Shown here piece by piece: positions 14,036-21,694 of a stretch of 44,024 nucleotides of DNA (position 1 is its first letter; the number at the start of each line of letters is the position of its first letter). The translations under genes were made by a program, and so were the position numbers. The notes beneath the pieces were generated by a model. The model ran no database searches. It saw only the letters and a list, made by a program, of their open reading frames with translations, and had not been told where the DNA came from. The DNA is taken from NCBI GenBank assembly GCA_013298025.1, contig JAAFJE010000031.1:1-44024 (forward strand). Direction: 5' to 3'. This stretch comes from Cytophagales bacterium (GTDB taxonomy: Bacteria > Bacteroidota > Bacteroidia > Cytophagales > Spirosomataceae).

Positions 14036-15397
14036 TTATTTTTGAGCGAACACTATTTTACGTAATCCATAAAAACACCTTTCAAGTAGTCGTAAATCTT
14101 CGGTAATAATTTCGACCGAGCCAGCCATTTCACTTCTGAATGGTAGTGTTTTTTGATAGTTTGTTTGAAGTTCCTTTGGTAAAAAAATCTTGAGCCGATA
14201 CTGATTTCCCATAGGTGTTGCTTCTATGGCTTGGATGTAGCCAGCAATGCTTCCGTATTCTTCAAAAGGATAGTTGACTAATTTGATAATTACTTGTTGT
14301 CCAACTTTTACTTTCCCAAAATTTTGTGCTGAAACATCGGCAAAAGCTACGATTTTTCCCTTTTGAGGTAATACAGCAAATAAGGTGTCGCCAGTACGAA
14401 TCATTTGATTTTCGGTAAGATTCTTCAAAAAACTTAGTTTGCCTTGCGAAGGAGCAGTGATAACATAATTTTGTTGCCAATTAGCCAAAAGATTGTCTAT
14501 GTTTTGAATGGACTGTTGAATATTATCTCGAAAACTTCTTGTTTTTTGGAGATATTCAAAATCTAATTCTACCAATTGATTTTGTTTTTCAGAAAGTATT
14601 AAACTGTTCTCTACTAACACTTTAGCATAATTTTCATTGTCTTTCTTTTTTTGTAAAAATGTATTTTCAAAATTTAAAAACTCTAATTTTCCATATACTT
14701 TTTCTTGGTAAAGCTTTTTGTCGGCGTTATATTTAATTTCTACATTTTTGAACTCTTCTTTATTGATTTCTACTTGTCGTTGATTGATAAGTACCAACTT
14801 CTGATAATCTGCAATTTGTTGGGTTAAAATACGCTTTCTTTGTACGTAAATGGCATCATTGAGTAATCGTTCCGCTTCTTGATAGTTTTTCAGTAGGTTA
14901 TTATATTCCGTTTGTAAATCCCCAAAAGTGAGAGCGGTAGAGGGAAAATTTACTTTTGTAGCAGTATTTTGTAAATACGATTTTAATTGTTTAGAAAGTG
15001 TTTGAAGTACTGGCAGGTTTTCTAAACGAGTGGTATTTTCTATTTCAGCCATAAAATCACCTTGATTAACCAATTGATTGGGTTTTACCAGTAATTTTTG
15101 TAGTCGTCCAGAAGCTCTTGGAATTACTTTGATAGGTGGAATTTCTGTGGTAATGACCACATTTCCTTTGATGATTTCAGGATATTTGATGTACCAAGAA
15201 GCCAATATTCCTATAATACCTACTAAGGCAATGATTGTTAAACCATATCGAATAATCGAAGCGGGTCGTTTACTCAACACCTCATGTACTTCGTCTGAAC
15301 GAAGCTCTAATGTAGGTTTGGGCGAAACTCCTTTTTTTATTTCCGAACCATTCAAATGAACTGTTGGAGGATTTATATCTTTGATGTTCATTTCCAT
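14036..15397 (-). CDS. HlyD-type membrane fusion protein for peptide export
   Basis: A 453-residue periplasmic adaptor that links an inner-membrane ABC exporter to an outer-membrane channel. One transmembrane helix at residues 49-68 follows a cytoplasmic tail. Then comes a biotinyl-lipoyl-like half (VIPRASGRLQKLLVKPNQLV, about 94-113), a long coiled-coil hairpin (about 125-310, rich in Gln, Lys and Glu), the returning lipoyl half (VITAPSQGKLSFL) and a beta-barrel domain (VGQQVIIKLVNYPFEEYGSI). It is the last gene of the export island, 68 bases after the ABC transporter gene, with a REP-like palindrome in the gap. No TolC-type outer-membrane partner is present in the window. Confidence 0.9.
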   Translation of the reverse strand: MEMNIKDINPPTVHLNGSEIKKGVSPKPTLELRSDEVHEVLSKRPASIIRYGLTIIALVGIIGILASWYIKYPEIIKGNVVITTEIPPIKVIPRASGRLQKLLVKPNQLVNQGDFMAEIENTTRLENLPVLQTLSKQLKSYLQNTATKVNFPSTALTFGDLQTEYNNLLKNYQEAERLLNDAIYVQRKRILTQQIADYQKLVLINQRQVEINKEEFKNVEIKYNADKKLYQEKVYGKLEFLNFENTFLQKKKDNENYAKVLVENSLILSEKQNQLVELDFEYLQKTRSFRDNIQQSIQNIDNLLANWQQNYVITAPSQGKLSFLKNLTENQMIRTGDTLFAVLPQKGKIVAFADVSAQNFGKVKVGQQVIIKLVNYPFEEYGSIAGYIQAIEATPMGNQYRLKIFLPKELQTNYQKTLPFRSEMAGSVEIITEDLRLLERCFYGLRKIVFAQK

Positions 15398-15404
15398 ATA
15401 TTCC

Positions 15405-15469
15405 GTAGCACAGGTTTTTGACCTGTCGTGGTCTTACTGATTGAAACACAGGTTGGAAACCTGTGCTAC
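15405..15469. repeat. REP-like compound palindrome at the transporter stop codon
   Basis: GTAGCACAGGTTT (15405-15417) and AAACCTGTGCTAC (15457-15469) are perfect 13-bp inverted repeats. Each arm also forms its own small hairpin (CAGGT-TTTTG-ACCTG and ACAGGTT-GGA-AACCTGT). The TAG stop of the ABC transporter gene (15466-15468) lies inside the outer arm. This nested form resembles mobile REP/palindromic elements. Confidence 0.65.
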
Positions 15470-17655
15470 TGCCCTAATTCTAATTGATTTTTTACTAAAT
15501 TGAAATACTCTCCTCGTTTTATTGTCAAACTCTCATGCGTACCAATTTCTGTTATTTCGCCATTGTAAAGCACTACAATTTGGTCTGCATTTTTTACGGT
15601 ACTTAATCGGTGTGCCACCACAATAACCGTTCTTCCATGAAAAAATTCATCAAGATTTTCCAAAATCTTCTTTTCATTATTGGCATCAAGGGCGTTGGTA
15701 GCCTCATCAAAAAATAAGTATTCGGGGTCTTTATAGACGGCTCTGGCAATCAACAAGCGTTGTTTTTGACCTTGACTTATGCCATTGCCTTCCGAGCCAA
15801 TTTTCGTATTAAAACCCAAAGGTAAGCTTTCGATAAAGGGTAAAATATTAGCTACTTCACAGGCATGGTATAGTTTTTCAAGGTTGGGTTGTTCGTCGCC
15901 CAAAGCGATATTGCGAGCAACAGAGTCAGAAAAAATAAAGCCATCTTGCATCACAACCCCACATTTACTCCGCCAATCTCTTGCCCTAAAACTATCAAAA
16001 GGAGCGTTTCCTATCTTGATTTCTCCCTTGATGTCATAAAACTTCAATAATAGTTTTAGCAATGTGGTTTTTCCACTGCCACTCATGCCCACAATAGCGG
16101 TTATCTTTCCTTTCGGGATGCTCAGATGGATGTTTTTTAGTACAGGCTCATTTCCTGCTCCGGGGTAAGTAAAGCTGATATTCTTTAGGCTAATACTCGC
16201 CCCTTTTTCTCCCACATTTTTATAGGCTAACGTTTCTTTTTTCTCTTCATCTTCCAATTCATGGATTTCGTTCAATCGTTCTAAGCTAATTTTAGCACTT
16301 TGAGCAGCTTGGACAAATTGAATTAAGGCCTCAATCGGGGCATTCAGTTGCCCGATAATGTATTGGACTGCCAACATTGTCCCTAAAGTCAGTTGACCAT
16401 CAACCACGGCTTTGGCGGAGAAAAACGTGATCAAGATGTTTTTCCCTTCATTCAAGAAAAACGCTCCTGCTTGTTGGTATTGGTTTAAAGCCAATCCTTT
16501 TGTTTGAAATTGAAACATTCTGGTTTGAATACGCTCCCATTCCCAACGTTTGAGGTGTTCGGCATTGGCTAATTTTATTTCTTGCATTCCCTGAATCAAT
16601 TGCACCAATGAGCCTTGATTTTTGGCAGCCACATCAAACATTTTGAAATCTAACTTGCGTCTTTCTTTCAAAAAAAGTACGACCCAACAAGCATACAAAA
16701 CAGACCCAATCATAAAGATGGAAAAGATAGGCAAACTATACAAAGCCAATACACAGCCAAATATCAGCAGGTTGACCATCGAGAAAAGCGTATTCAGCGT
16801 TTGCCCCGTCATAAACTGCTCGATACGGCTATGGTCGCCAATACGTTGCATAATGTCGCCAAACATTTTTGTATCAAAAAATGACATGGGCAACTTCATC
16901 AGTTTTATCAGAAAATCGGAAAGGATTGAGAGATTGATACGGATACTGATATGCAGTAATATCCACGAACGGATAAACTCTACGACGGTTCTACTGGCAA
17001 AAAGCATCAATTGTGCCGCCAGCATGACATAGATAAAGTGTAGATTACGTGTCTGAATGCCAACATCAACAATAGACTGCGTAAGGAAGGGAAAAACTAA
17101 TTGCAAACCACTGCCCACTAACAAACCAATGGCTAACTGTATCAATAGTTTTTTGTAAGACCAAAGGTATTTGAGAAGATACGAAAAATCTAAGCCCTGT
17201 TTTTTATCGTCTTCTTGTTCATAAAAAGCTGGGGTTGGTTCTAATAGCAAGGCTACGCCAACAGGTTGACCATCTTCTTGCGTAGTAGCCCAATGCTCGC
17301 AAAAATCCTCTTTAGCTATTTTGCGTAAACCCTTGCCTGGATCAGCCAATAAAACAGTGTTTTTTTGTACTTCTACCAAAACCACAAAGTGATTTTGTTG
17401 CCAGTGGACAATACAAGGAAACGGGGCATCATTGACTAATTTATCAATAGTAACTTTTACGGCGATAGTTCTAAACCCCACGCTTTCAGCCGCCTCCGCA
17501 ATACCCAATAATGAAACGCCCTCCCGACTAAACCCCGAAGCATCTCGAAGCCTTTGAATATTAAGACTCAGCCCATAATGTTTTGCTATCATGCGTAAAC
17601 AAGTAGGGCCACAGTCCATTTGGTCGAGTTGTTGGTAGAAGGGGAAGTTGGGCAT
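15466..17655 (-). CDS. Peptidase-containing ABC transporter (C39 protease, PCAT)
   Basis: A 729-residue exporter that removes a double-glycine leader in the cytoplasm and pumps the mature peptide out. The N-terminal C39 protease has the intact triad: Cys15 in QMDCGPTCL, His89 in NHFVVL and Asp105 in ADPGKG. A six-helix membrane domain follows (about 155-440). The nucleotide-binding domain has Walker A GMSGSGKTT (523-531), signature ISQGQ (626-630), Walker B YLFFDE (646-651) and H-loop His682 in VVAHRLST. It lies between tlpA (79-base gap) and hlyD. With the GG-leader peptide 1.7 kb upstream in the same direction, that peptide is its likely cargo. Confidence 0.94.
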   Translation of the reverse strand: MPNFPFYQQLDQMDCGPTCLRMIAKHYGLSLNIQRLRDASGFSREGVSLLGIAEAAESVGFRTIAVKVTIDKLVNDAPFPCIVHWQQNHFVVLVEVQKNTVLLADPGKGLRKIAKEDFCEHWATTQEDGQPVGVALLLEPTPAFYEQEDDKKQGLDFSYLLKYLWSYKKLLIQLAIGLLVGSGLQLVFPFLTQSIVDVGIQTRNLHFIYVMLAAQLMLFASRTVVEFIRSWILLHISIRINLSILSDFLIKLMKLPMSFFDTKMFGDIMQRIGDHSRIEQFMTGQTLNTLFSMVNLLIFGCVLALYSLPIFSIFMIGSVLYACWVVLFLKERRKLDFKMFDVAAKNQGSLVQLIQGMQEIKLANAEHLKRWEWERIQTRMFQFQTKGLALNQYQQAGAFFLNEGKNILITFFSAKAVVDGQLTLGTMLAVQYIIGQLNAPIEALIQFVQAAQSAKISLERLNEIHELEDEEKKETLAYKNVGEKGASISLKNISFTYPGAGNEPVLKNIHLSIPKGKITAIVGMSGSGKTTLLKLLLKFYDIKGEIKIGNAPFDSFRARDWRSKCGVVMQDGFIFSDSVARNIALGDEQPNLEKLYHACEVANILPFIESLPLGFNTKIGSEGNGISQGQKQRLLIARAVYKDPEYLFFDEATNALDANNEKKILENLDEFFHGRTVIVVAHRLSTVKNADQIVVLYNGEITEIGTHESLTIKRGEYFNLVKNQLELGQ

Positions 17656-17734
17656 GGTTTAGTGTTTACGCTATACACAAATGAATATCCAAATATTTCG
17701 TTATGTTTATAGATTTGGAGATGCGAGAGACAGG

Positions 17735-19258
17735 CTATTTTAATAATTTCGCAAAAGTTGATTCTAATTCTTTACTTTCGGCATTTGGTGCATTGGCAAA
17801 AGCTAATTTTCCCATTTTATCAAAAATCATGTATCTTGGAATTGTACTAACGTTTTGTTTTTTTAAGAAATTAGAAGTTTCTGAGTTTACGATTAAATAG
17901 CTTTCCGAATAATTATTGAGTTTTTCATCAGCCATAGCTTTTTCCCAAGGTTCGATTGTGCTATCCATTGATAAATACACAAAAACAACATCTTTATTTT
18001 TATCCTTTAATTTGATGGATGAAGGCAAAGCTTTACGACATGGTGCACACCAACTTGCCCAAAAGTCAACATAAATTAATTTACCAGCATGGCGTTTTTT
18101 TAAGTCATCAAAAGTTATTTGTTTTTTATCCGACGATATCAAAACCAATGAATTAGTTTCATTCTTTTTATCATTAAACTTTAATGCGTATTTATTTTTA
18201 ATATGACTCAAATAAGTTGTATCTGTAACATCTCTCTCAAAACGAGTAAAGTACTCTAAAAAGTCATTATTCGAAAATGAATTAGCAATACGTTTCATTT
18301 CTCGATATAAAAGATAGTTCCTGTTTTTTTCATTTAAAAACTTTATTTCCTTTATTGATTCATAGGCTTCTCTATAGTCTCTATTAACACCATCTTTCAA
18401 ATCCCGTTGTGTCGTTTTACTTAACCAAAATATATCGAAACCTTTTTCTATAAATGTATTATATTGAAAATCTGGAATACTGTCTGTATGATATTCTTTT
18501 AGAATATTTTCAAAAACATCAATAGATAACTTTCCTTCTGACATTTCTATTTTTTTCACATTGAAATAGTTTCTGTTTTTGTAATAAGCATAAGAAATTG
18601 GTGATATTTGTTCTATTGCTTTTAAAGAATCTAGGTAATTATTTTCTATTGCTAAAAGCTGGTTAGATAACAGTAAATATTGTTTTTTTATGGCCAATGA
18701 TTCTTTTTTCAACTCTTCTTGCAAATTTTCATGTGGTAATTTCGCAAAATCTAATGACAAATAGGGGTAATTATATACGTCAAGAGGCGACACCGAGAGG
18801 TTATTATGCCGCTGTCTAAATAAGCCATCGTAATTGGTATCAATGCTATGCGTTTTTCTATTTAAGATAGTTAAAAATGGGGCATCATTCTTATATTCAA
18901 ATAGGCATACGTCTCCCCTTTTTAATAAGTACTCATTCTTCAACACTGAGTTATATCTGTGAAGAAGAACAATGATGTCATTCGTAACCTTAATTCTGAC
19001 GGTATCAACTTGTTTTTCCGTGTTAATCTCTACGTCTATTATCTGTTTTGTGTCATAATAAGATACTCTTGGTGTTTGTTTAGTTAAAGTTTGACTCTTT
19101 CCTATAACAAACGGTTTTTCATTTTTAGGGTAGTGTTTAAAAATGATTATAATTTCATCTTTGAACGGCATCTTTGTTATTTGACTATAACTTAACAAAT
19201 TACAGCATACAAGAAGAGTGACAATTATGTAACGATGAGCAAATTGAATCTTGTGCAT
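17735..19258 (-). CDS. Exported TlpA-like thioredoxin protein
   Basis: A 507-residue protein with a signal peptide (MHKIQFAHRY then IIVTLLVCCNLLSYSQ), so it acts in the periplasm. The first 385 residues are an unrecognised, Lys/Asn/Tyr-rich region resembling N-terminal parts of other Bacteroidota TlpA proteins. The C-terminal thioredoxin domain has VDFWASWCAPCRK (Cys404, Cys407) and the cis-proline STIPRYM. The start at 19258 was chosen over the ATG at 19309 because the latter lies inside a perfect hairpin and before the signal peptide. It sits between the peptide precursor and the exporter genes, so it may reduce or isomerise disulfides of the peptide or recycle the VKOR fusion. AT-richer than the flanking housekeeping genes. 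Confidence 0.87.
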   Translation of the reverse strand: MHKIQFAHRYIIVTLLVCCNLLSYSQITKMPFKDEIIIIFKHYPKNEKPFVIGKSQTLTKQTPRVSYYDTKQIIDVEINTEKQVDTVRIKVTNDIIVLLHRYNSVLKNEYLLKRGDVCLFEYKNDAPFLTILNRKTHSIDTNYDGLFRQRHNNLSVSPLDVYNYPYLSLDFAKLPHENLQEELKKESLAIKKQYLLLSNQLLAIENNYLDSLKAIEQISPISYAYYKNRNYFNVKKIEMSEGKLSIDVFENILKEYHTDSIPDFQYNTFIEKGFDIFWLSKTTQRDLKDGVNRDYREAYESIKEIKFLNEKNRNYLLYREMKRIANSFSNNDFLEYFTRFERDVTDTTYLSHIKNKYALKFNDKKNETNSLVLISSDKKQITFDDLKKRHAGKLIYVDFWASWCAPCRKALPSSIKLKDKNKDVVFVYLSMDSTIEPWEKAMADEKLNNYSESYLIVNSETSNFLKKQNVSTIPRYMIFDKMGKLAFANAPNAESKELESTFAKLLK

Positions 19259-19297
19259 ACATTTATAATTTAAAATCATAACATTTGATAAGTAAAG

Positions 19298-19360
19298 AAG
19301 AGGTTGCATGAAAAATATAAATAGAGATATATTCTACTTATATTTTTCATGCAACCTCTT
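19298..19360 (-). terminator. Perfect 23-bp hairpin between precursor gene and tlpA (attenuator)
   Basis: Arms at 19298-19320 and 19338-19360 are perfect reverse complements over 23 bases (GAGGTTGCATG on one side, CATGCAACCTC on the other), with a 17-base AT-rich loop. It begins 9 bases past the precursor stop. On the minus strand it is followed by TTCTTTACTT, a modest T run, so it may be a partial terminator that lets the small precursor be made in excess and also protects the 3' end of its mRNA. Confidence 0.65.
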
Positions 19361-19368
19361 CAAATTAA

Positions 19369-19587
19369 TTAAGCTTGAGGCATCCAACTTGCACTACCAC
19401 AACTATCACAACACCAGTGTCCACCGAATTGAGCAGCCCCTGCCTGAGCGTTAGTTTTTGATACTCCAGTTATCACATCTCCATTTTCTCCTTGAAATGC
19501 ACATGTGCCTGGTGCTAATCCTCCATTTACAGACTTCATCTCGTTTTTTGAAATAACATTTCCTGAAAACTTTTCTAAATTTCTCAT
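19369..19587 (-). CDS. Double-glycine leader peptide precursor
   Basis: A 72-residue precursor. Residues 1-23 form a leader ending ISKNEMKSVNGG, which fits the GG-leader pattern at each key place: Ile -12, Ser -11, Glu -8, Met -7, Val -4, Gly -2, Gly -1. The predicted core (residues 24-72) begins LAPGTC, is rich in Gly, Ala, Ser and Gln, and holds four cysteines (29, 59, 60, 63) with HWCCDSCGS near the end. An even cysteine number and a neighbouring oxidase suggest two disulfides. No Lan, radical-SAM or YcaO enzyme is nearby. It lies 48 bases after the VKOR fusion gene and before a strong hairpin. It could be a bacteriocin, a signal or a metal-binding peptide; the activity cannot be read from the sequence. 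Confidence 0.85.
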   Translation of the reverse strand: MRNLEKFSGNVISKNEMKSVNGGLAPGTCAFQGENGDVITGVSKTNAQAGAAQFGGHWCCDSCGSASWMPQA

Positions 19588-19623
19588 GTTTAATTTTTGT
19601 TAAGAGTTAAAAATTATATTTCT

Positions 19624-19635
19624 GATTTGCAAATC
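19624..19635. repeat. 12-bp perfect palindrome before the precursor gene
   Basis: GATTTGCAAATC is self-complementary and directly abuts the stop codon of the VKOR fusion gene, 37 bases upstream of the precursor ATG. It could be a regulator site or chance. Confidence 0.3.
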
Positions 19636-21264
19636 CTATCTTAGGGGAGTTATAGATTCTGGCACGCTGGAAAGCAATTGTACCAAATCTGATAGCTCAA
19701 AAATTGATGGTTTTTCAAAACCGTTGATAAAAAAGGTGGGGGTTGCGGTAATATTGGCAAAACTACACCAGTCACAATGTGCCTTCGCCATTTCAGTAAA
19801 ATATGGTTGCTTAATCTCAGTCACTGGGTACCTCACTTTCCATGCTTCAATATTGTTAATACCTTCTTTATACCAATCTGTTAAGGCACTGTTTGTTTCA
19901 TTTGAAGAAGCTTGTAATGCCAGTAAATGTTGAGCAATGTCCAATCTTTTGCCGTCTGTATCTCCGCAAGTAAGAAAAATTATCTCGGCTTTGAGATGAG
20001 GATTATCCCTCAGTATTTCTTCTAAATCATTGTGTGCTTTAGCACAGGGCTTACAAAATGGATTACTTACCATTAATATGGTATGATTGGCATTTGGATT
20101 GCCCAAGTGAATAGTTTCAATATCTCTTGCACTTGGGAATGATACTTCTTTTTGATTAGCCAGTAAAGCCTGAAATACTGTAGGATTACTTTTAAATTTC
20201 TGTAATGCTTGTTGTGTTTTATTCAGTTTATTTGATTGAATGATTAATGGCTTTACAAAAAGCCATAATACTGTTGTAATGCTAAATGCTTGTGTAATAA
20301 CAATTATTTCATTAATACCGAGTACTTCATTGAACGATATTGGATAATTTATGATAAACTCTATCCAAAGTAAGGCTTGAACCATGAGGCATAAAACACA
20401 CCAAGATTTAGCTACTCTTGCTTGATAATAAACAGACCAAAATGTGTATGGTAAAGCAAGGATATTCAGTATTTTCAATAAAACCCAATGATTATCTGGA
20501 AGCATCAAAAGTGCCAAAAAGCCTCCAGAGAAATACAAAAGCCCTATTTCTGACCAACTGAGCCAACCCAATATTTTTGACGCAGAGGAATTTAGGATGT
20601 TGTTGCAATTCCCTGTTTTGCCTATTTGACAAAAATTATTTACCAAGGCATTACCAAATCCCCACTGCACTACAAAAAGTAAAACGCATATTATAAAGCC
20701 AAAAAGTTGAGTTGCAATAAATAGATATTCTCGCCAATCAGTAAATCCTTTTTGCAGAATACTTAAAAATACAATACTTGATAAAAGTAAAATAAAAGTA
20801 GGTATTCTTAGTGAAGCCAATTGTTCTTGTTTACGCTTATGCTGATAGTCCTTTTCACCAGATTGTTCTGTCGCTTCTGCGACAAGCACAATGCCAGACC
20901 ACAAACGGTAAAAATCGTGGTAGGCTACTTGATATTGTTTGAAAGCACCATCGGTAAAATTGACATTTTCTTTATTGAGCGATGTTACAAGTACAAATTC
21001 TCCATCATTACTATAAAGATGAGCGACAAAAGGTGCTTCCAATTCTTTAAACTGTTCTGGTTGAAGCTTCAATGCCGCATTTTGAATATGCCAAGTATCA
21101 AGCGTGTCACTAAGACTTAACAAACTGGGATAATCAGGATGTATTTGTAATTGCTCTCTAACAGAAGTATTTGTAACAGGTACTTTCAAATGATGTATCA
21201 ACAAGCGTATAACTTCAATAGGTCGCTGATTGGTCGTATTAAAAAGTAGGTTAAGAGTTTTCAT
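19636..21264 (-). CDS. C39-like / VKOR / thioredoxin fusion membrane protein
   Basis: A 542-residue disulfide-forming protein. Residues about 10-130 resemble a C39 peptidase domain but contain no cysteine, and the expected catalytic His is Glu89 (DGEFVLV), so it should not cleave. Six hydrophobic segments follow (about 154-170, 180-200, 234-255, 260-280, 287-307, 319-342). The VKOR part has loop cysteines 212 and 220 (FCQIGKTGNC) and the quinone-side pair Cys289/Cys292 (SWCVLC). The C-terminal thioredoxin-like domain has PFCKPC (404/407), a second pair CDWC (497/500) and the cis-proline TATPTFF. VKOR oxidises a thioredoxin partner and passes electrons to quinone. It is the first gene of the island and probably oxidises the precursor. 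Confidence 0.9.
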   Translation of the reverse strand: MKTLNLLFNTTNQRPIEVIRLLIHHLKVPVTNTSVREQLQIHPDYPSLLSLSDTLDTWHIQNAALKLQPEQFKELEAPFVAHLYSNDGEFVLVTSLNKENVNFTDGAFKQYQVAYHDFYRLWSGIVLVAEATEQSGEKDYQHKRKQEQLASLRIPTFILLLSSIVFLSILQKGFTDWREYLFIATQLFGFIICVLLFVVQWGFGNALVNNFCQIGKTGNCNNILNSSASKILGWLSWSEIGLLYFSGGFLALLMLPDNHWVLLKILNILALPYTFWSVYYQARVAKSWCVLCLMVQALLWIEFIINYPISFNEVLGINEIIVITQAFSITTVLWLFVKPLIIQSNKLNKTQQALQKFKSNPTVFQALLANQKEVSFPSARDIETIHLGNPNANHTILMVSNPFCKPCAKAHNDLEEILRDNPHLKAEIIFLTCGDTDGKRLDIAQHLLALQASSNETNSALTDWYKEGINNIEAWKVRYPVTEIKQPYFTEMAKAHCDWCSFANITATPTFFINGFEKPSIFELSDLVQLLSSVPESITPLR

Positions 21265-21313
21265 TTCTTTAAATTTTACTCTACAAAAGTGCCAAACATC
21301 TTCCTACTCTCCA

Positions 21314-21348
21314 ATCTGATTTCAGATAGTTTTCATCTGTTTTTAGAT
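21314..21348. promoter_or_regulatory. Pair of operator-like palindromes upstream of the export island
   Basis: ATCTGATTTCAGAT (21314-21327, a 6-2-6 palindrome) and ATCTGTTTTTAGAT (21335-21348) agree at 12 of 14 positions, and their starts are exactly 21 bp apart, two helical turns. They lie 50-84 bases before the VKOR fusion ATG and about 125 bases before the divergent XRE gene. The placement and spacing fit two dimers of an HTH regulator binding one DNA face; the XRE protein is the obvious candidate. Confidence 0.55.
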
Positions 21349-21372
21349 ATTTAAAAATTTTATAATTTTTCC

Positions 21373-21403
21373 TTGCAAAATAAGGTAATATATCATACTT
21401 TTA
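21373..21403 (+). promoter_or_regulatory. Candidate promoter of the XRE regulator gene
   Basis: TTG at 21373-21375, 20 bases, then TACTTTTA at 21396-21403, one base short of the TAnnTTTG consensus. The XRE ATG is 69 bases downstream. It lies 25 bases past the twin palindromes, so autoregulation is possible. Confidence 0.45.
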
Positions 21404-21472
21404 CTTATACTTATACCAAAGATACATCGCTTATCAAGATTAATAGGCTCTTACAACTAAACCAATACCTCC

Positions 21473-21694
21473 ATGTCAACCCTAGGAAAAAACATTAGAA
21501 ACCTACGTCTGAAAAATCGTCTTTCGCAAGCTGCTTTAGCAGATTTAATCAATATTCCTTCACAAAGTAAAATATCAGCATGGGAAAGCGACCTGAGTAT
21601 TCCCAATCTTTTAGAAGCCCAAAAATTGTGTCAGGTATTCAATATCTCTTTAGATGAACTAGCTCCTAGGAGTCTTTTTTTTCGCCAATCATAA
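21473..21694 (+). CDS. XRE-family HTH regulator
   Basis: A 73-residue DNA-binding protein consisting only of a Cro/CI-type helix-turn-helix. Residues about 4-60 cover the domain: LGKNIRNLRLKNRLSQAALA (helices 1-2), INIPSQSKISAWESDLSIPN (turn and recognition helix), then LLEAQKLCQVFNISLDELA. There is no ligand-binding domain, so any signal must act on its level or through a partner. It is divergent from the export island, with twin operator-like palindromes in the shared 208-base gap, which suggests it controls the island. A weaker alternative is that it belongs with the small unknown gene downstream. Confidence 0.87.
   Translation: MSTLGKNIRNLRLKNRLSQAALADLINIPSQSKISAWESDLSIPNLLEAQKLCQVFNISLDELAPRSLFFRQS

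Follow-up and report, generated by a model that had tools for sequence, protein, structure and literature searches.

A 44,024-nucleotide stretch of contig JAAFJE010000031.1 from a bacterium of the Cytophagales (assembly GCA_013298025.1), referred to below as the window, carries an island of genes apparently devoted to a small cysteine-containing peptide with a double-glycine (GG) leader, among them a gene for a membrane protein in which a C39-like domain, a VKOR core and a thioredoxin are fused. The best explanation of the whole, in which we place somewhat more trust than doubt, is leader-guided disulfide formation in the cytosol, before export. The C39-like domain of the fusion would hold the leader and would be unable to cut it; the fusion's thioredoxin would oxidise the core cysteines and be re-oxidised by the VKOR cysteines, with electrons passing, as expected of the VKOR family, to quinone; and, with the active sites facing the cytosol, oxidation would precede export. 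By analogy with the families concerned, the active C39 domain of the peptidase-containing ABC transporter (PCAT) would cut after GG, and the core would be exported by PCAT, an HlyD-type adaptor and an outer-membrane channel encoded elsewhere. A TlpA-type protein would serve as a periplasmic proof-reading reductase or isomerase. A preliminary description of the window had already proposed that the island makes, oxidises and secretes such a peptide; the observation is confirmed and the main inference drawn from it supported, and the fusion, a leader-reading domain on an inverted-looking VKOR, looks like its more interesting part. New here are the C39 domain without a catalytic Cys, the reversed VKOR charges with an extra helix, the TlpA type that goes with this peptide type, and the hairpin found after many precursors.

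The island consists of five minus-strand genes, running from 21264 down to 14036, and a divergent XRE gene, all of which are open frames at the positions given for them:

21473 to 21694, plus strand: divergent XRE regulator (Pfam HTH_3; congeners L025 and L031 have similar regulators next to the island)
19636 to 21264, minus strand: C39-like/VKOR/thioredoxin fusion, 542 residues (Pfam, AlphaFold2 model, fold matches)
19369 to 19587, minus strand: precursor peptide, 72 residues, with a leader of 23 and a core of 49 containing four Cys (open frame, core-type matches)
19297 to 19361, minus strand: RNA hairpin of 29 bp directly after the precursor stop (folding, -42.3 kcal/mol, z -13.2)
17735 to 19258, minus strand: TlpA-type protein with a C-terminal thioredoxin (WCAPC) (Pfam, model, fold matches; the open frame reaches 19309)
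15466 to 17655, minus strand: PCAT with the triad C15-H89-D105 (Pfam, aligned exporters)
14036 to 15397, minus strand: HlyD-type periplasmic adaptor (Pfam HlyD_3)

Above the Pfam cut-offs, the exporter matched Peptidase_C39, ABC_membrane and ABC_tran, the adaptor HlyD_3, the regulator HTH_3 and the TlpA-type protein Thioredoxin_8. The exporter's C15, H89 and D105, earlier described as an intact triad, are kept in 53/53 aligned exporters (its own one counted), and the island, with this triad on an ABC exporter, an adaptor and a GG leader, has the residues and domains of a predicted PCAT-exported GG peptide system.

The fusion is made up of a C39-like domain (residues ~1-135; Peptidase_C39 at 19-132), an extra membrane helix (152-172), the VKOR core (VKOR at 181-306) and a DsbA-like thioredoxin (Thioredoxin_4 at 383-515). 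Pfam thus agrees with the three-part composition first described, but the catalytic Cys of the C39 part is absent. This part contains no Cys at all (its Pfam match begins at profile position 18 of 133), and in an alignment of 84 fusions its columns with at least five Cys never exceed 21/84; with no conserved Cys, the N-terminal domain would be, by analogy, a leader-reading module at most. The VKOR core scored 53.9 bits against PF07884 (cut-off 27.5) and has both the loop Cys pair and the CxxC. The six redox Cys, namely Cys212, Cys220 and Cys289-x-x-Cys292 of the VKOR and Cys404-Lys-Pro-Cys407 of the thioredoxin, are kept in 82/84 fusions; a third Cys of the thioredoxin domain, C500, is kept in 77/84. 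Judged from target names and aligned lengths, the AlphaFold2 model (pLDDT 88.5, pTM 0.74) resembles the peptidase domains of PCAT1, LahT and ComA at its N-terminal end, where the C39-like domain of HlyB also matched, and DsbA-type oxidases at its C-terminal end; searching solved structures with a profile gave the same picture for either end. Since no VKOR structure is among the 50 structure matches listed, the VKOR core rests on Pfam. The C39-like and VKOR-thioredoxin parts occur as two separate frames in the L028 and L033 genomes and on the Parabacteroides plasmid L178, and a fusion relative at L029:9208-10818, near a distant exporter, has neither the loop Cys pair nor the thioredoxin CxxC and is perhaps a non-oxidising cousin.

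The central question can be put concretely: which side does the VKOR of the fusion face? Sequence comparison suggests that all three functional parts of the protein (C39-like domain, VKOR active site, thioredoxin) probably lie in the cytosol. The model has six long helices, the first of which (152-172, the end of a helix at 140-172) precedes the VKOR core, and the stretch 152-172 is hydrophobic in 98% of the 84 fusions. On one side of the membrane, the mean number of Lys plus Arg (K+R) over these fusions is 3.39 before the first helix, 3.83 in the Cys loop, 1.88 before the CxxC and 6.05 after the last helix, compared with 0.31, 0.19 and 0.63 in the segments of the opposite side. The side of the Cys loop is the richer in K+R in 84/84 fusions (83/84, with one tie, for internal loops alone), this side being also the longer one (88 versus 26 residues; density 0.17 versus 0.04). 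As controls we used 14 canonical VKORs from the phylum (out of 30 loci, 17 matched the profile and 13 were not used; two fusions and one duplicate were removed from the 17). The canonical orientation pattern, with K and R opposite the active site, is not that of the fusion: the 10 residues before the CxxC hold 1.9 K+R in fusions and 0.0 in controls, the region of transmembrane helices 2 and 3 holds 0.23 and 3.7, respectively, and the canonical sign of the charge difference was found in 14/14 controls and 0/82 fusions (80 reversed, two ties; in the other two of the 84 fusions the searched interval held no CxxC). When the set was thinned to representatives below 60% identity, 54/54 fusions were reversed; at that level the controls form nine clusters. 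Following the last helix, 12 canonical VKOR-thioredoxin rows have 0-2 K+R versus 6.05 in the fusions, and 16 fusions listed from other stretches, some from the same organisms as among the 84, gave 14 reversals and two ties. Because of the reversed loop charges and the extra helix, the positive-inside rule would put the active site and the thioredoxin in the cytosol, and cytosolic active sites imply oxidation before export. Of the proposal that the island makes, oxidises and exports a Cys peptide, the dedicated gene set and the likely disulfides stand, but the charges argue that the oxidation is cytosolic and precedes export.

The number of cysteines in the peptides speaks for their pairing. 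Among non-redundant cores with at least three Cys, cores with fewer being left out, 108/114 have an even number (four in 25, six in 63, eight in 19 and twelve in one; binomial p = 3e-25, ignoring kinship), compared with 131/405 control small open reading frames (ORFs) of the same loci, likewise with at least three Cys. This excess, as selection for fully paired cysteines would give, points to disulfides. The window's own genome is 99.97% complete. Of its 16 VKOR candidates 10 were scored, and none but the fusion matched; DsbB had no match among the 11/11 candidates scored. C39 matches number three there: the island PCAT, which is the strongest, the fusion, and a weak match from a different contig. 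Pfam scans of seven island-region and 10 flanking proteins (7741 to 29536) contained no lanthipeptide, radical-SAM or YcaO enzyme, in agreement with the preliminary description. On the even-Cys rule, the conserved linkage described below, the sole VKOR match and the missing DsbB match, disulfides are likely to be the main modification of the peptide, as had been suggested. Thioether (lantibiotic-type) chemistry was considered and set aside, no such enzyme being present in the scanned proteins, as was a role of the fusion as housekeeping disulfide machinery, its relatives adjoining peptide-export genes. The fusion might also be an export or quality-control factor that docks precursors at PCAT and keeps their Cys reduced, oxidation taking place outside; this would fit the substrate recruitment by protease-inactive C39-like domains of type I exporters described in the portion of PMC6363468 consulted. 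We consider it improbable, given that four-Cys VKOR cores are known as a family to make disulfides with quinone, that a reductase role needs an electron donor, none of which is seen here, and that the DsbA-like fold and the even-Cys rule favour oxidation.

The gene set is conserved in many related bacteria, with peptides that differ widely. Fusion matches at E 1e-10 or better were found in 14/59 genomes (own counted), some of them partial, and matches at 1e-5 in 42/396 genomes of the class (own counted), 30 with a best E < 1e-40 and the remaining 12 matching chiefly via the C39 part. A scan for relatives, with one genome per species, yielded 540 candidate stretches, 491 of which encode a fusion relative, and the best 80 of these 491 were examined as loci. 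Their hosts are mostly Pedobacter, Mucilaginibacter, Runella, Emticicia and Chitinophagaceae, with one of the Bacteroidales and one named Endomicrobiellum. PCAT is present in 55 of the 80 loci, HlyD in 50, a member of the thioredoxin/TlpA cluster in 50 and a GG precursor with at least three Cys in 65; when all neighbours were clustered, with no prior choice, the exporter, the TlpA-type protein and HlyD were the only clusters in more than 15 loci. Linkage elsewhere, the absence of which would by its own terms have refuted the preliminary description, proved conserved in the 61/80 loci with at least 8 kb downstream (19/80 having under 8 kb): the exporter was found in 51, HlyD in 48, the TlpA-type gene in 40, a Cys-rich GG precursor in 54 and all four in 31. 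GG-type small ORFs lie on the strand of the fusion 106 times and on the opposite strand 12 times. Fifteen of the 80 loci gave no match to the precursor pattern; by inspection, six of these hold a missed GG-type Cys-rich ORF and one, L043, has a similar ORF with an altered motif. The expectation of one peptide is borne out in the own genome, where the precursor is the sole match to itself and no second copy was found, but not in the family, in which 28/80 loci contain two or three precursors.

Protein relatives also occur on eight plasmid records, seven of which were examined. Two Emticicia plasmids (L175, L176) carry the whole set followed by a TolC-family gene; the Hymenobacter plasmid has the fusion, TlpA-type gene, PCAT and HlyD, and no annotated precursor; those of Aureibacter and Spirosoma have no annotated TlpA-type gene, the latter with glycosyltransferases added; one Parabacteroides plasmid likewise adds glycosyltransferases and has no HlyD in the stretch, and in the other Parabacteroides record the fusion is split and the stretch contains no PCAT. 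On L175 and L176, the system lies behind genes for a histidine kinase and a LytTR regulator, and the next commonest neighbour cluster of the 80 loci, present in 15, was represented by a LytTR response regulator in the member scanned. A GT28-like gene (cluster in 8 loci) or a DUF6625 gene (cluster in 11 loci), with one member of each scanned, is found at L050:11617-12984 and L044:14532-15359, and the plasmids L177 and L179 have annotated glycosyltransferases; these genes suggest glycosylated disulfide peptides.

The 72-residue precursor, correctly described at the outset, has its four core Cys arranged C ... WCCDSC. Its leader carries Ile at -12, Glu at -8, Met at -7 and Val at -4, followed by GG, residues that match the C39 recognition pattern as given in the part of PMC6363468 seen. 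Leader and bacteriocin models matched below their cut-offs, and no class II bacteriocin cut-off was reached; by analogy with bacteroidetocins, an antibacterial or signalling role is the likeliest for the product. Cores of a similar type occur at L023, L025 (twice), L033, L054, L067, L093 and L105. A different arrangement is seen in Mucilaginibacter pineti (L060:9690-10548), whose three GG-leader precursors have the spacing C-x6-C-x5-CC-x3-C-x(9-10)-C. When one of these cores was compared with solved structures, with E values up to 10 allowed, it gave nine matches, all named venom peptides or toxins (best E 0.005), which we take to be cystine knots; the L060 peptides would be cystine-knot-like bacterial peptides, probably by convergence.

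The hairpin lies between the precursor and the TlpA gene, the first ATG of which falls within it; for this reason the gene probably starts at ~19258 and not at 19309. It is likely an attenuator or an mRNA 3' end and probably holds the precursor level above the enzyme level. Folds of -20 kcal/mol or lower were counted in the 90 nt downstream of 85/129 precursors versus 30/224 other island genes (p = 3e-24), a raw comparison without correction for base composition or for a next gene that starts at once, and the hairpin of the window is the most stable of them. L020 and L021, which repeat other organisms, were dropped from this count as well as from the control and pairing counts.

The TlpA-type protein is likely secreted. 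Its model (pLDDT 70.6) has an N-terminal part that is beta-rich and then helical, followed by the C-terminal thioredoxin, and its fold matches are Bacteroides thiol-disulfide oxidoreductases. By a loose test (within 700 nt of the precursor; 103 stretches, two of which repeat other organisms), a thioredoxin-type gene follows 70/134 Cys-rich GG precursors. Seven other precursors share the motif [WYF]CCx[SG]C, two of them in one locus, and in likeness to the TlpA-type protein of the window the thioredoxins of their partners rank 1-6 and 9 of 46 (p = 2e-5 for the thioredoxin part, p = 0.02 for the N-terminal part); the fusions of these seven are no closer to the window fusion than others (p = 0.92). 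The [WYF]CCx[SG]C peptide type and this TlpA type would therefore seem, at the level of sequence, to travel together.

Several observations weigh against the scheme proposed above. A plain hydropathy cut-off gives four membrane helices here and most often five (49/83) in the family, which is why the cytosolic topology stays provisional; the count of six comes from the long helices of the model, the positive-inside rule can fail, and a folded, oxidised core would need passage through PCAT. No TlpA cluster member was found in 30/80 loci and no PCAT in 25/80, PCAT being missing also from 10/61 of the longer loci. The hydrophobic N-terminus of the TlpA-type protein is short, and because none of its 19-residue stretches reaches the hydropathy cut-off of 1.6 (best mean 1.58), its signal peptide is a reading only. 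Over 47 pairs, the correlation of core with TlpA is weak (Mantel r 0.13, p = 0.003; 0.115, p = 0.008, given fusion similarity) and nearly equalled by that of core with fusion (r 0.12, p = 0.03); as the former hardly exceeds the latter, pairing is claimed for this peptide type alone. Part of this evidence would suit the same disulfide-peptide exporter with its VKOR in the usual orientation, the core being exported in reduced form and receiving its disulfides in the periplasm from the fusion thioredoxin, with the C39-like domain either in the cytosol, provided that the extra helix does not span the membrane, or in the periplasm. Known bacterial VKOR-thioredoxin fusions reportedly work outside the cytosol, which is a reducing compartment, plain hydropathy does not yield six helices, and the TlpA-type proteins have N-termini that look hydrophobic by eye and resemble Bacteroides oxidoreductases. 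Yet the loop charges are opposite to those of canonical VKORs, and the leader, which the C39-like domain would read, stays cytosolic in PCAT systems as a family, so that we regard the usual orientation as a real but clearly less probable possibility than cytosolic oxidation. By the title of the paper on it, the VKOR of the archaeon Aeropyrum pernix, which is not known to have a C39 domain or peptide locus, acts in two compartments, the second presumably being the cytosol; as far as a title goes, a VKOR at work in a second compartment would thus have been described before.

The island has a lower G+C content (0.349) than its flanks (0.407 and 0.406), which suggests acquisition. The flanking genes for an M3 peptidase and a Cys/Met enzyme were found in 4/4 congeners searched; in three of these the best matches to the two genes do not share a contig, and in the fourth ~200 kb separates them. 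As they are separate in all four, no simple empty site could be demonstrated in these genomes. A repeat search upstream of the fusion returned A+T-rich repeats only, a search of plasmid records for near-identical copies of the island returned no match, and PADLOC matches were of ATPase and HTH type. No TolC-type outer-membrane gene lies within the island, for which reason 'self-contained', as it had been called, is too strong a term. A broken island is present in congener G003 (L031:9542-15438), with a fusion frame of 114 residues, a TlpA-type frame of 259 residues and an exporter in two frames; no precursor is listed, and HlyD (463 residues) and XRE frames are present. Such a copy in a congener might hint that the island of the window, too, is a silent or decaying relic, an idea we find very hard to credit when every gene is intact with its catalytic residues, the leader agrees with the C39 pattern and the precursor has a strong hairpin directly behind it.

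The nearest known systems are the bacteroidetocin loci, also of the phylum Bacteroidota, which according to the sections of Coyne et al. 2019 (PMC6671954) consulted have the same gene order (membrane protein, GG peptide, thiol oxidoreductase, PCAT) and a four-Cys GG peptide. In the same sections, loss of the membrane protein or of the thiol oxidoreductase lowers toxin activity, neither confers immunity, and altered migration of the peptide indicates disulfides; a further study, as far as seen, reports that bacteroidetocins kill Bacteroidales through BamA (PMC8546649). Two redox-type genes are thus common to both systems, their need for activity being known from the bacteroidetocins. In contrast, the leader has 23 residues here and 15-16 there, the core 49 and 42, and the membrane protein is a 542-residue C39-like/VKOR/thioredoxin fusion here and an unknown five-helix protein in the description available (PMC6671954); the HlyD adaptor is a further difference. 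By comparison of descriptions, the island may work like a bacteroidetocin locus; it is not classed as one, because the leader length differs and the likeness is known by gene order. From VKOR-thioredoxin proteins, as presented in the part of PMC4555120 seen, the fusion differs by its C39-like domain, extra helix, reversed charges and peptide-export neighbours. In type I exporters, HlyB among them, C39-like domains have the same C39 fold without catalytic Cys and are thought, according to PMC6363468, to recruit substrates; that of HlyB is fused to an ABC transporter and that of the island to an oxidase. Some loci of the fusion family resemble glycocin loci in adding glycosyltransferase genes. 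Class IIa bacteriocins and glycocins combine a GG leader, PCAT export and disulfides, to which the island adds the VKOR fusion and the HlyD adaptor. Among the titles listed from the open-access literature (subscription papers and preprints lying outside, and larger result sets being partly surveyed), none describes a VKOR fusion with GG peptides, and the main text of a survey of ribosomally synthesized and post-translationally modified peptides of Bacteroidales (PMC10352776), in the portions consulted, contains no VKOR, vitamin K, thioredoxin or disulfide.

We give roughly even chances to a broader view, in which the island represents a widespread class: an inverted VKOR with a C39-like leader reader and a thioredoxin would oxidise GG peptides before export and form a chassis for swappable Cys-rich peptides, some with cystine-knot-like spacing, each often with its own TlpA-type partner. 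If true, this would be a dedicated modular route to disulfide-rich miniproteins in which the leader, and not the compartment, selects what is oxidised, and it would explain such peptides in an organism where no DsbB was found. It would also offer nature's own means of cytosolic disulfide formation as a tool and make accessible a broad and diverse range of disulfide-rich peptides from Bacteroidota.
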